Source: an uncultured Actinomycetes bacterium
GTDB lineage: Bacteria; Actinomycetota; Acidimicrobiia; IMCC26256; JAGPDB01
Length of the DNA stretch: 63,184 bases
Reading direction: 5' to 3'
Assembly: GCA_937872965.1 (NCBI GenBank)
Contig: CALMUU010000064.1
Span: forward strand, 1-63,184
Below the pieces are notes generated by a model that did not search any database, was not told the DNA's origin, and saw only the letters and a list, made by a program, of their open reading frames with translations. Below, one piece after another: positions 42,326-57,778 of this stretch; positions within the stretch are counted from its first letter, which is position 1, and each line of letters starts with the position of its first letter. The translations under genes were made by a program, and so were the position numbers.

Positions 42326-42375
42326 AGCGTTGTGGATACTTTTTATCTATATGGATAAAAAGTATCCACAACGCT
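42326..42375. repeat. Family D hairpin, copy 1
   Basis: 22-base perfect arms (AGCGTTGTGGATACTTTTTA... and complement) around TATATG. The second copy is at 53335-53384. Both are followed by GCTTGAG and TCCTTCG. Confidence 0.85.
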
Positions 42376-42434
42376 GCTTGAGATCCTTCGCAAGCTCAGG
42401 ATTGTAGATGTCACGTTATTCGGTGTCGGTTTTC

Positions 42435-42562
42435 ATAGTGTTGGAGTGCCAAACGCTCACTATGTGAGTCTCAATCGACAAGACACTCGATCATTGCATA
42501 ACCACCACCACCGTTTAGTCAATTAAGACTCACCACATAAGTCTTTGACGCTCCAACACTAT
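42435..42562. repeat. Family E structured element, copy 1
   Basis: 128 bases bounded by ATAGTGTTGGAGTG and CGCTCCAACACTAT (13 of 14 paired). Inside, AGACTCACCACATAAGTCT near the 3' side and CTCACTATGTGAG near the 5' side form two more stems. Closely similar in plan to 55046-55160. Confidence 0.75.
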
Positions 42563-42642
42563 CAACACGATACCGTGATCCTTGGGCCTATTCCGCCACA
42601 AAACCCGAATTCTGTCACCGAAAAACGTGACATCTACAAGGA

Positions 42643-42774
42643 TGACAGGGAAGGACGAGCGACTGCGAGTTGCGTCGGGCTTTGCCCGCGCAACGACAAC
42701 AAACAAATCACAGGGAACGATCAGAGGAGCGACCGCGAGGCGTGTGCGCTTTGCGTACTCGCCGACGGACAAAC
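42643..42774. repeat. Two tandem family A elements downstream of rplO
   Basis: Copies at 42643-42707 (hairpin GGGCTTTGCCC) and 42708-42774 (hairpin GCGCTTTGCG). The second ends ACAAAC, directly before the rplO TGA. Confidence 0.8.
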
Positions 42775-43272
42775 TCAGTGATTGGTGTGTTGATTACCTT
42801 GTGCAGGTCGACGCTGATCGCCCCATGGAAGAGGAACGATTACACATGTTCCACCAGCAGCTTCAATTGCAGCTTTCGCTGTTGCTGAAAATCCATGTGC
42901 ATGAACATTTAAGGCTTTGTCTATTGCACCGCCACCAAGGACTTTAACGAAACCTTGTTTCTTTAAAATTCCTGCTGTACGCATCTTGCCTGGGTCGACT
43001 GTTGCGCCAGCATCAAAAGCTTCTGCAAGTGCATCAAGATTGAGAGAAAGATACTCCACACGGAAAGGGTTCGTGAAACCCTTGGCCTTAGGAGAACGGC
43101 GGTAAGTGGGTACTTGTCCACCTTCGAAACCTGCGAACACGGTGTTGCGGGCGTGCTGTCCTTTCGAACCACGTCCTGCTGTTTTTCCACCCTTACCTGA
43201 GATACCACGACCAACACGCTTTTTCTTGTGCTTTTCGCCTTCTGCTGGAGCTAAATCGTTAATTTTGATCAT
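42775..43272 (-). CDS. rplO: 50S ribosomal protein L15
   Basis: 165 residues. Glycine-rich N-terminus KRVGRGISGKGGKTAGRGSKGQHARN, then FEGGQVPTYRRSPKAKGF, and the C-terminal KALNVHAHGFSATAKAAIEAAGG. Starts 2 bases after the rpmD stop. The last residues (DQRRPAQGNQHTNH) exceed the family's usual end. Confidence 0.96.
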   Translation of the reverse strand: MIKINDLAPAEGEKHKKKRVGRGISGKGGKTAGRGSKGQHARNTVFAGFEGGQVPTYRRSPKAKGFTNPFRVEYLSLNLDALAEAFDAGATVDPGKMRTAGILKKQGFVKVLGGGAIDKALNVHAHGFSATAKAAIEAAGGTCVIVPLPWGDQRRPAQGNQHTNH

Positions 43273-54617: not shown

Positions 54618-54935
54618 TTAAGCAGTCTGGATTTTAATTTCGATGTCCACACCTGCAGGTAAATCAAGGCGCTGCAAAGATTCAACGGTATTTCCTGAAG
54701 GTTCGAGGATGTCGATAAGACGTTTATGGATGCGCATTTCGAAGTGTTCACGGGCATCTTTGTCTACATGAGGAGATGTAGTAACGGTGTATCGATGCTT
54801 TTCTGTAGGCAAGGGAATGGGGCCAACGACTTTTGCTTTTGTGCGAAGAACAGTTTCAACAATTTTCTTCGATGACTGGTCGATCAATTCGTGATCGTAC
54901 GCCTTCAATCGAATACGGATCTTCTGGTCTGCCAT
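54618..54935 (-). CDS. rpsJ: 30S ribosomal protein S10
   Basis: 105 residues, also the NusE partner in antitermination. [35 protein letters not shown] and [20 protein letters not shown]. Isolated from the other S10-operon genes by the YHYH gene downstream and the GGDEF-EAL gene upstream. Confidence 0.98.
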
Positions 54936-55045
54936 TTTTATTCCCTTGTCAAGAAGCGGTTACGTCACCCCGGATTTATCGGGGCAAAATGATGTTGTAT
55001 CAGTATAGCGGCGACATTTCGCCCGTACCAACTCCACGCATATAA

Positions 55046-55160
55046 CCGTGTTGGAGCGTTTGAGACTCATATAGTAAGTCTCAAACGCTACAACGAAAAA
55101 TGGTAGCAAGTGTTTGGTCGAACAAGACTCATGTGGTGAGTCTTTGGCGCTCCAACGCGG
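55046..55160. repeat. Family E structured element, copy 2
   Basis: 115 bases bounded by CCGTGTTGGAGCG and CGCTCCAACGCGG. Inside are two hairpins: TTTGAGACT/AGTCTCAAA (near 55058-55085) and AAGACTCA/TGAGTCTT (near 55123-55145), so the fold is a multi-arm junction. Lies between the GGDEF-EAL stop and rpsJ. Confidence 0.8.
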
Positions 55161-55173
55161 AGAGGGGTGCAAA

Positions 55174-57555
55174 TTAGGCGGTTTTGCGAGGGGCGTGGTC
55201 GACAATCTCAGAAGGATCGAGTTTGGGAAGAACAATCTCGGTCGCTTCAAGTGGTTCTGAATAGAAGTATCCCTGACCTAGGGTACAGCCCAGTTCGACC
55301 AAGCCATCACGCGTTGCTTGGTCTTCAATCCCCTCAGCTGTAACTACAAGGTCCATTGATTTTCCCAACCCAACGAGAGCAGTGACAATAGCCGTGTCGT
55401 TTTCTTCATGCCCAAAACCCTGAACAAAGGACTTGTCGATTTTGAAGCCTGAAATCGGGAACTTCTTAAGATAAGAAAGGGATGAATATCCTGTACCAAA
55501 ATCATCGATATGGAACCTGAATCCATATGATTGAATTTCATTAAGCGTGGTTATTGCGTTACGAGCATCCCCTAAGAGCGACGACTCTGTCATTTCGAAT
55601 ATCACCGATTTTGGACTAACCCTATAACGACTACATCCCGAAACAATAGTTTCCAAAAGATAAGGATCGCTCAGCTGACGAGATGAGAGATTGATGTTCA
55701 TCGACAATGGGCTCTCTCCGGGTTGAAAATGTTTTTGCCACTCGCTGAGTTGCATATATGCCTGGTTAATCACGATGTTCCCAATATCGATGATACGACC
55801 ATTATCTTCAGCAACTGAAATGAACTCATCCGGTGAAATTAGTCCTAACGTTGGATGGCTCCATCTTGAAAGGGCTTCGAATGCGACAACTTTGTTTGTT
55901 TTTAAGTCGTAGATTGGTTGATAGAAAATCTTAATTTCGTTTTGAACGATTGCACGATGCAAATCACTCAGCGACCACCCAGTTTTTGTGGCGACGGGCT
56001 TGACAAAATCATCTGCGTATTCAATACGGTTACGTCCTAACTCTTTCGCACGATACATTGCAGCATCTGCATTACGAAGAAGCGATTGTGGATCGTGCTG
56101 TGCCCCACTGCTAAAAGCAACACCAATGCTGCATGACAAATATGATACCGAGCCAGCTATGTCTAGAGGTTGGGTGGCAACATTTAATATGCGTGAAGCA
56201 ATATCAAAAATGATGTCTCGCTCAACCGCGGGGGCAATGAGAACAGAAAACTCGTCGCCTCCAAGACGGCATACAACACCGTCATTGCCAACAATTGTGC
56301 GAATCCGCTGAGCGATCTCACGAATCACATCATCTCCAACATTATGTCCATGTGTATCATTGATTTCTTTAAAGCGATCTAAGTCGATAAAAAGGACAGC
56401 GATTTGCGCATCGCTTCCTTTTCTCTCGACTAAGGCTCTCTTAAGTTCATCGATAAAGAATGTACGATTACATAAATCGGTCAGAGTATCATGCGTTGCT
56501 AAATCCTGGAATTTCTCTTCGCTCTGCGTAATGCGCATAATGGCAAGCTGCTGGTCTGCTTGAATTCTTTTGTTTTCGAAGTGGCCCACAAGCTGTGCCA
56601 CGAGAACAATGACAAACATCATTAGAAAGCTATAAGAAACCGCATGGGGAACAACTTCAAGAGTGGGAAACTTTATTGCTGCAAACATAATCGTAAACAA
56701 AACAAAAACATTAACCCCGATGGTTAGATAATTCTCGCCCTTAATAGTTGGTTTGTTCGTGGGCTTCCCTGATTTTTGAGTGGATGCAATTATCCAAAAG
56801 AGCAAAGCGGGAAGTTGAGATAGTCGCGTTGCAACAGTGAGGTATCTATAGTTCTCGAAGTGAAGAACAATAAAAAGAATATCCGACGTTGCCGCAATAA
56901 TCATTCCGAAACACAGAGCAAGGATGTTCCTATCCATTCTTCGATACAAGATAATTGCTAAAGGAAAAGAAATTAACATCACATCAATGACGAAAGTGGA
57001 GAGATTGACCCATTCACGATCGATGTCGATCTTGCGGCCATTTACAACAAGTTGAGAAATGAAAACAATACCCATGAACGAGATGCACGACCCAAAGGAC
57101 AATACATTCAAACTCAAACGAATCCTTTCACGTCTGTTTAGGCCGTCAAGACCCACAGCAATAATTCCGATCACAGCAAACAAAGTCGCAACGATAACGA
57201 ACGTTCCTACATCTTCTGCTGATACCAATGGATCGTGACGACTAAATGTCCATATCGTAAGAATCACCTGTGCAGGCATCCATGAAATTGCTCCAATCCC
57301 CATAAGTGCCCAACCACGTAAATGCTCTTTTTTATAAAGCCTAAAGCACCCATAACTCATAAAGATATATAGGAGGACTTGAATAATTTGGTAGATGCCG
57401 ACGTATAAATATCCTGTACTCGGATTAAATCTTTGAATCCATACAAGCAATGCAAAATATGAGAAGTAGAAGCTTCCGTAAACTGGTATCACATATCTAG
57501 CCTTACGAAAACGTTCAATTAGTGCACTATCCTTCGCGGACACATTTTCGCTCAT
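55174..57555 (-). CDS. Membrane GGDEF-EAL cyclic-di-GMP protein
   Basis: 793 residues from ATG 57555 (MSENVSAKD); 22 upstream in-frame residues are less likely. About eight to ten membrane helices fill residues 20-320. GGDEF domain: LCRLGGDEFSVLIAP, with no RxxD inhibitory site before it. EAL domain: VAFEALSRWSHPTLG, MNINLSSRQL, FEMTESSLL, IDDFGTGYSSLSYLK, FKIDKSFVQG, TAEGIED and GQGYFYSEPL, so catalytic residues look complete. It could make or break c-di-GMP. Placed between tuf and rpsJ, an unusual site. Confidence 0.92.
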   Translation of the reverse strand: MSENVSAKDSALIERFRKARYVIPVYGSFYFSYFALLVWIQRFNPSTGYLYVGIYQIIQVLLYIFMSYGCFRLYKKEHLRGWALMGIGAISWMPAQVILTIWTFSRHDPLVSAEDVGTFVIVATLFAVIGIIAVGLDGLNRRERIRLSLNVLSFGSCISFMGIVFISQLVVNGRKIDIDREWVNLSTFVIDVMLISFPLAIILYRRMDRNILALCFGMIIAATSDILFIVLHFENYRYLTVATRLSQLPALLFWIIASTQKSGKPTNKPTIKGENYLTIGVNVFVLFTIMFAAIKFPTLEVVPHAVSYSFLMMFVIVLVAQLVGHFENKRIQADQQLAIMRITQSEEKFQDLATHDTLTDLCNRTFFIDELKRALVERKGSDAQIAVLFIDLDRFKEINDTHGHNVGDDVIREIAQRIRTIVGNDGVVCRLGGDEFSVLIAPAVERDIIFDIASRILNVATQPLDIAGSVSYLSCSIGVAFSSGAQHDPQSLLRNADAAMYRAKELGRNRIEYADDFVKPVATKTGWSLSDLHRAIVQNEIKIFYQPIYDLKTNKVVAFEALSRWSHPTLGLISPDEFISVAEDNGRIIDIGNIVINQAYMQLSEWQKHFQPGESPLSMNINLSSRQLSDPYLLETIVSGCSRYRVSPKSVIFEMTESSLLGDARNAITTLNEIQSYGFRFHIDDFGTGYSSLSYLKKFPISGFKIDKSFVQGFGHEENDTAIVTALVGLGKSMDLVVTAEGIEDQATRDGLVELGCTLGQGYFYSEPLEATEIVLPKLDPSEIVDHAPRKTA

Positions 57556-57778
57556 ATGTCTACAATCGGCCAGATTGATGAACGAATAAAGGGCAATGAC
57601 TTTTCGAATTGAAGGACACAAACCTCATTGAGGGAAAGTTCGAAACCACAATTTCGCATCAGGCTATCTAACTAGCACCCATTCGCCCCCTGCGTTTTCC
57701 CTTCCAAACGTCATCCTGAGGGGGCTTTAGCCCGAAGGATCTCCGCGCAGCGGATGTACGAGATTTTCCGCTGCGTAA

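Follow-up and report, generated by a model that had tools for sequence, protein, structure and literature searches.

Two loci in the window (the whole 63,184-nt stretch of DNA that was analysed) belong to a family of repeats, here called family E. It is probably a REP/REPIN-type palindromic DNA repeat, dispersed and non-autonomous, that carries neither the GTAG nor the CGTC tag. Most descriptions of REP and REPIN repeats concern Proteobacteria and proceed by way of their RAYT enzymes. Family E has in common with them that it is a dispersed extragenic palindrome in multiple copies, that its units pair up as inverted doublets whose ends are conserved and whose spacing is constant, and that it lies just behind gene 3′ ends and rarely between divergent genes. 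Two marks of membership are missing: linkage to a RAYT gene, and a GTAG or CGTC tag at the hairpin foot, which is absent in 35 E units and replaced by the foot GYGTTGGAGCG. A copy number that is low for a REPIN family and the indirect nature of the evidence for movement also count against the REPIN reading.

Copy number and anatomy of family E

The genome that contains the window (G000; 1.88 Mb in 264 contigs), which its WhiB genes place in the phylum Actinomycetota, was searched by BLAST with copy 2 and with a covariance model built on 16 copies. The first-pass annotation had described a family of two copies; the genome holds 22 full-length loci. Six of these represent a single copy transported by a larger element (element F, below), leaving 17 independent ones. 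Also present are three solitary 49-nt hairpins with the family's sequence, two half copies and, on contig C47, one single hairpin with a different interior. In a 380-kb sample of this genome, chosen to include copy-bearing contigs, GTTGGAGCG was counted 31 times against 2.9 expected. The two copies in the window are composed as follows.

42438..42559, unstranded: copy 1, a 122-nt dimer (42435-42562 with its ATA/TAT extension)
42438..42486, + strand: left unit of copy 1
42511..42559, − strand: right unit of copy 1
55048..55158, unstranded: copy 2, a complete 111-nt REPIN-like dimer of the hybrid subtype (55046-55160 with its CCG/CGG extension)
55048..55096, + strand: left unit of copy 2, a near-perfect hairpin resembling the single hairpins elsewhere
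55110..55158, − strand: right unit of copy 2, GCGTTGGAGCG...CGACCAAACAC

Both loci, the outer stem GTGTTGGAGYG/CGCTCCAACRC common to them and the two GACTCA/TGAGTC-type hairpins in each had been proposed at first pass and are confirmed here, with the left hairpin of copy 1 altered to GCTCAC/GTGAGTC. The covariance-model match to copy 2 spans 55044-55162.

A full copy is a 111-nt palindrome made of two inverted 49-nt hairpin units, arranged head-out on either side of an approximately 13-nt spacer; the terminal inverted repeats are some 20 nt long. From GTTGGAG to CTCCAAC, all independent copies have a core of 107 or 108 nt (107 nt on C210) except copy 1 (118 nt), the middle of which is 10-11 nt longer than in the other copies. 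Hardly any variation is seen in the outer feet GYGTTGGAGCG, and the interior has decayed: foot positions 3-9 (GTTGGAG) and positions 46-47 (AC) are the same in 35 of 35 units, in which the GACTCA/TGAGTC arms are mostly retained and the loop and inner arm vary. The inner arm, CGACCAAACRC, has GYGTTTGGTCG as its reverse complement and so looks like the outer foot, which makes the 49-nt hairpin read as the family's basic unit. Hybrids account for five copies (L001-L004 and L017), in which the left half is a near-perfect hairpin as in the single ones. In 14 of 17 copies the terminal base at one end of the dimer matches that at the other (Fisher P 0.015), a pattern more in keeping with copying of the whole dimer than with selection for an RNA stem.

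Copy 1 rides inside a MITE

Copy 1 lies inside a 236-bp element, element F, near the stop codon side of rplO.

42398..42402, + strand: left 5-bp target duplication of element F, AGGAT
42403..42638, unstranded: element F, a 236-bp MITE carrying copy 1, with terminal inverted repeats TGTAGATGTCACGTT.../...AACGTGACATCTACA (also given as TGTAGATGTCACG.../...CGTGACATCTACA)
42639..42643, + strand: right 5-bp target duplication of element F, AGGAT
42775..43272, − strand: rplO, ribosomal protein L15, neighbour of element F and copy 1, stop codon towards F

The genome contains six complete copies of F, differing from that in the window at 0-5 bases, and a seventh cut by a contig end. Duplications of AGGAT or ATCCT flank all six complete copies, in one case with one mismatch, and the insertion point is always GTC^ATCCT^GAG inside another dispersed repeat (GTCATCCTGAG), relative to which F occurs in both orientations. 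F therefore has both of the MITE marks tested, terminal inverted repeats and a target duplication of constant length (5 bp); no transposase gene with F ends was found. Copy 1 is an older E copy multiplied as a passenger inside F and, because it rides in F, the six identical copy 1 loci are one lineage. A MITE with terminal inverted repeats had been offered as one reading of the two loci, and part of this stands: E is a dispersed non-autonomous inverted-repeat DNA element, albeit one without target duplications, and copy 1 does sit within a MITE that has them, the ends of which belong to the larger element. Immediately to the left of F, at 42328-42378 of the window, is a separate long hairpin, AGCGTTGTGGATACTTTTTATC...GATAAAAAGTATCCACAACGCT.

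Placement behind genes and at syntenic sites

Copy 2 follows the stop codon of a gene for a cyclic-di-GMP protein at a distance of 15 nt and precedes rpsJ by 112 nt.

54618..54935, − strand: rpsJ, ribosomal protein S10, downstream neighbour of copy 2
55174..57621, − strand: GGDEF/EAL cyclic-di-GMP protein gene, upstream neighbour of copy 2, stop codon towards copy 2

This position is typical of the family. Among the 21 E copies outside element F, 19 are 4-26 nt from a facing stop codon and none lies between divergent genes. By ORF-based heuristic gene calls on 380 kb, which make the figures approximate, 15% of intergenic bases are that close to a stop codon (P about 6e-14) and 23% lie in divergent gaps (P 0.004 for the absence of E there). 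Convergent REPs mostly lie within 20 bp of both 3′ ends, and unidirectional ones adjoin the upstream ORF (PMC3733652); the placement of E is this published REP placement. An inserted copy would usually end up in the 3′ untranslated part of the preceding gene's transcript, and E may have a secondary effect on upstream mRNAs.

At syntenic gene 3′ ends the family was found at none of 14 sites in the congener G002 and none of 11 in the congener G001, the latter set including one weak match (for L009). Twelve of the 14 sites in G002 carry no related element; the other two, behind infB and behind the gene of locus L002, hold a unit of a G002 sister family (see below), which at infB stands almost exactly as far from the stop codon as E does. 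Because these two units stand behind the same genes, some E sites may be old and inherited. In G002, palindromes unrelated to E occupy L100 (between gyrB and gyrA), L110 and L114, at the 3′ ends of genes that bear E in the window's genome, as if the same short gaps received different repeat families in different species.

Alternative explanations

The first-pass annotation had also considered a structured RNA. In its wider form, this explanation makes E a structured RNA, or a transcription terminator or 3′-end processing hairpin of the upstream gene, that is kept by selection. The position directly behind stop codons would suit such a role, as would the very stable folds of copies 1 and 2, which have z scores of −7.5 to −9.1 on either strand, with none of 200 dinucleotide shuffles as good. 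The pattern of substitution points the other way. Neither a covariance model of the family nor the pair counts gave support, covariation being below nearly all shuffles: pairs of the clover structure form in 81.5% of the cells of the E alignment compared with 84.3% in column shuffles, double-change cells number 9 compared with 17.8, and the covariation score is 0.107 compared with 0.138; the long-rod structure behaves in the same way. Stem changes are mostly one-sided, and the sole pair with frequent two-sided change is the outermost variable one (8 CG, 6 UA, 2 UG). What had been read as a compensating G-U change is a one-sided replacement of C-G by U-G with no double change. With most stem changes lacking a compensating partner, covariation at the RNA level does not maintain the structure. 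In addition, a search of Rfam gave no credible match, neither copy 1 nor copy 2 has an intrinsic terminator (a GC hairpin followed by a T-run), the syntenic genes of the congeners manage without E, and the covariance model matches either strand of every copy with no strand preference. A structured RNA is thus not supported, and we regard this explanation in either form as very unlikely. For annotation, such hairpins should not be labelled as regulatory RNAs or terminators from the fold alone.

If E is a DNA element, it might be an ordinary MITE, that is, a deletion derivative of an insertion sequence with a DDE transposase, the terminal inverted repeats being GYGTTGGAGCGCCAAAGACTCA. Compatible with this origin are the approximately 20-nt terminal inverted repeats, the dispersal of the copies and the absence at syntenic sites, and element F, which is of exactly this kind, is active in the same genome. 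We nevertheless judge it improbable: 19 E copies tested have no target duplication (direct-repeat sum 26, compared with 23.8 for mismatched flanks) whereas F has one in six of six, 49-nt hairpins occur singly, and this fragmented assembly yielded no longer element that combines E ends with a transposase. One candidate for an autonomous E, on contig C234, was rejected because the genes between its two nearby copies resemble an ordinary suf operon. The alternative that the genome's own RAYT-like Y1 transposase mobilizes E, which would make it a REPIN in the strict sense, also seems unlikely to us. The window's genome, G001 and G002 each have exactly one such gene (L095 on G000:C130, L096 on G001:C5 and L097 on G002:C104), which matches the model for REP-associated tyrosine transposases with an E-value of about 1e-9, a match that falls below the model's curated cut-off. 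In all three genomes this gene is bracketed by inverted GGTCC-type repeats (GCAGGGTCCAACC, AAGGTCCGTCCCTGC and GAGGGTCCGACCCTC), relatives of which occur elsewhere in these genomes (for example, GGTCCGACCTTG 10 times in 380 kb of the window's genome). The RAYT-flanking repeat of the window's genome has the hexamer GTTGGA in common with the E foot, but in none of the three is a RAYT gene flanked by E, so that E is not a RAYT-flanking REP, with the proviso that a gene could have been missed in the 264 contigs of G000. Moreover, G001 carries the RAYT gene and lacks E, and G010, a genome of another family of the same order, has similar hairpins and no detected Y1 transposase. The GTAG tetranucleotide is important for RAYT recognition (PMC8266576); E lacks this tag and has GTTG instead, in a different setting. 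An enzyme that mobilizes E was not found.

Comparison with known repeat systems

Anatomy and placement are what E shares with REPINs. By definition, a REPIN consists of two REPs in inverted orientation, conserved at the ends and separated by a spacer, that can form either a long hairpin or a clover (Bertels and Rainey 2011, PMC3116915). E resembles them in its two inverted hairpin units, highly conserved outer ends, variable but length-constrained middle and length of about 110 nt, in its long-hairpin and clover folds, in single units that read as remnants and in being extragenic. It differs from them in having no RAYT flanked by the repeat, just 17 independent copies, units of 48-49 nt and interior changes that are largely uncompensated. 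With the GTAG and CGTC REPs (PMC3733652), E shares palindromic units, mostly in head-out dimers, placed in convergent or unidirectional gaps near 3′ ends, and the CGTC class likewise lacks a dedicated transposase. Unlike these REPs, E has neither tag, its feet GYGTTGG...AACRC are paired and not unpaired tags, and its units exceed the usual 20-40 bp. Actinobacteria are not mentioned in the text of the REP survey (Di Nocera et al. 2013, PMC3733652). Classical MITEs are also non-autonomous and dispersed with terminal inverted repeats; unlike E, a MITE such as F has 5-bp target duplications and inserts into another dispersed repeat. With REPIN anatomy and placement at gene 3′ ends, other feet and no linked RAYT, E joins the CGTC repeats in raising the question of what moves them.

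Two further classes were considered and rejected. A signal of the DNA-uptake type is contradicted by the frequency of the foot GTTGGAGYG, which, with one mismatch allowed, is not enriched in the window (27 occurrences, 26.8 expected). The attC sites of integrons have ends that run RYYYAAC...GTTRRRY, and those of E run GTT...AAC.

As to how E spreads, the mobile form is most likely the whole 111-nt dimer, which as a single strand can fold as one long hairpin or as a clover with two side hairpins. We infer a trans-acting enzyme that recognizes GYGTTGGAGCG, the sequence of the feet, and transfers the folded single strand, or a copy of it, into gaps just behind stop codons, without target duplication. 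The single 49-nt hairpins and half copies would then be remnants or recombinants. Copy 1 arrived by another route, inside the F MITE.

Sister families in related genomes

Sister families occur in the congener G002; their feet are similar, their units measure 48-49 nt and their interior is different. They comprise about nine near-perfect 49-nt hairpins, GTGTTGGGGCG...CGCCCCAACAC, and eleven 48-nt units, GCGTTGGGCCG...CGACCAWACRC, some G002 units forming head-out dimers of 107, 108, 110 and 132 nt. G010 contains six 48-nt palindromes, GCGTTGGCGCGATCC...GGATCGCGCCAACGC (L158, L161, L163, L166, L168 and L170), with a foot pattern as in E and several apparently behind stop codons; the likeness is suggestive of common descent with E.

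Elsewhere the pattern is absent. Family E was not found in G001, and neither the other searched genomes of the order nor a 397-genome sample of the phylum has a comparable set of palindromes; a palindrome search across that sample gave just two matches outside the genus, both chance-looking. The sole match in the genome-contig database, at L032 (Acidobacteria), has no palindrome and was dismissed as chance. Searches for phage, plasmid or viral relatives of E, and of the literature for palindromic repeats in Acidimicrobiia, found nothing.

We tentatively raise the possibility, which we hold to be less than probable, that these repeats form a further tag-superfamily of REP-like repeats in one actinobacterial order, with feet GYGTTGGNGCG. 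Its interior would turn over between species while the feet, the 48-49-nt unit and the head-out dimer persist, an unrecognized enzyme acting on single strands would move the repeats, and the six G010 hairpins would be distant members. Retention of the feet with exchange of the interior from species to species amounts to a natural experiment on recognition by the enzyme.

At L158 in G010 a second, imperfect copy of the palindrome adjoins the first. At L182 (G002:C61) the spacer of a sister-family dimer holds another hairpin with similar feet, GTGTTGGCGG...CAGCCAACGC, an apparent nested insertion.
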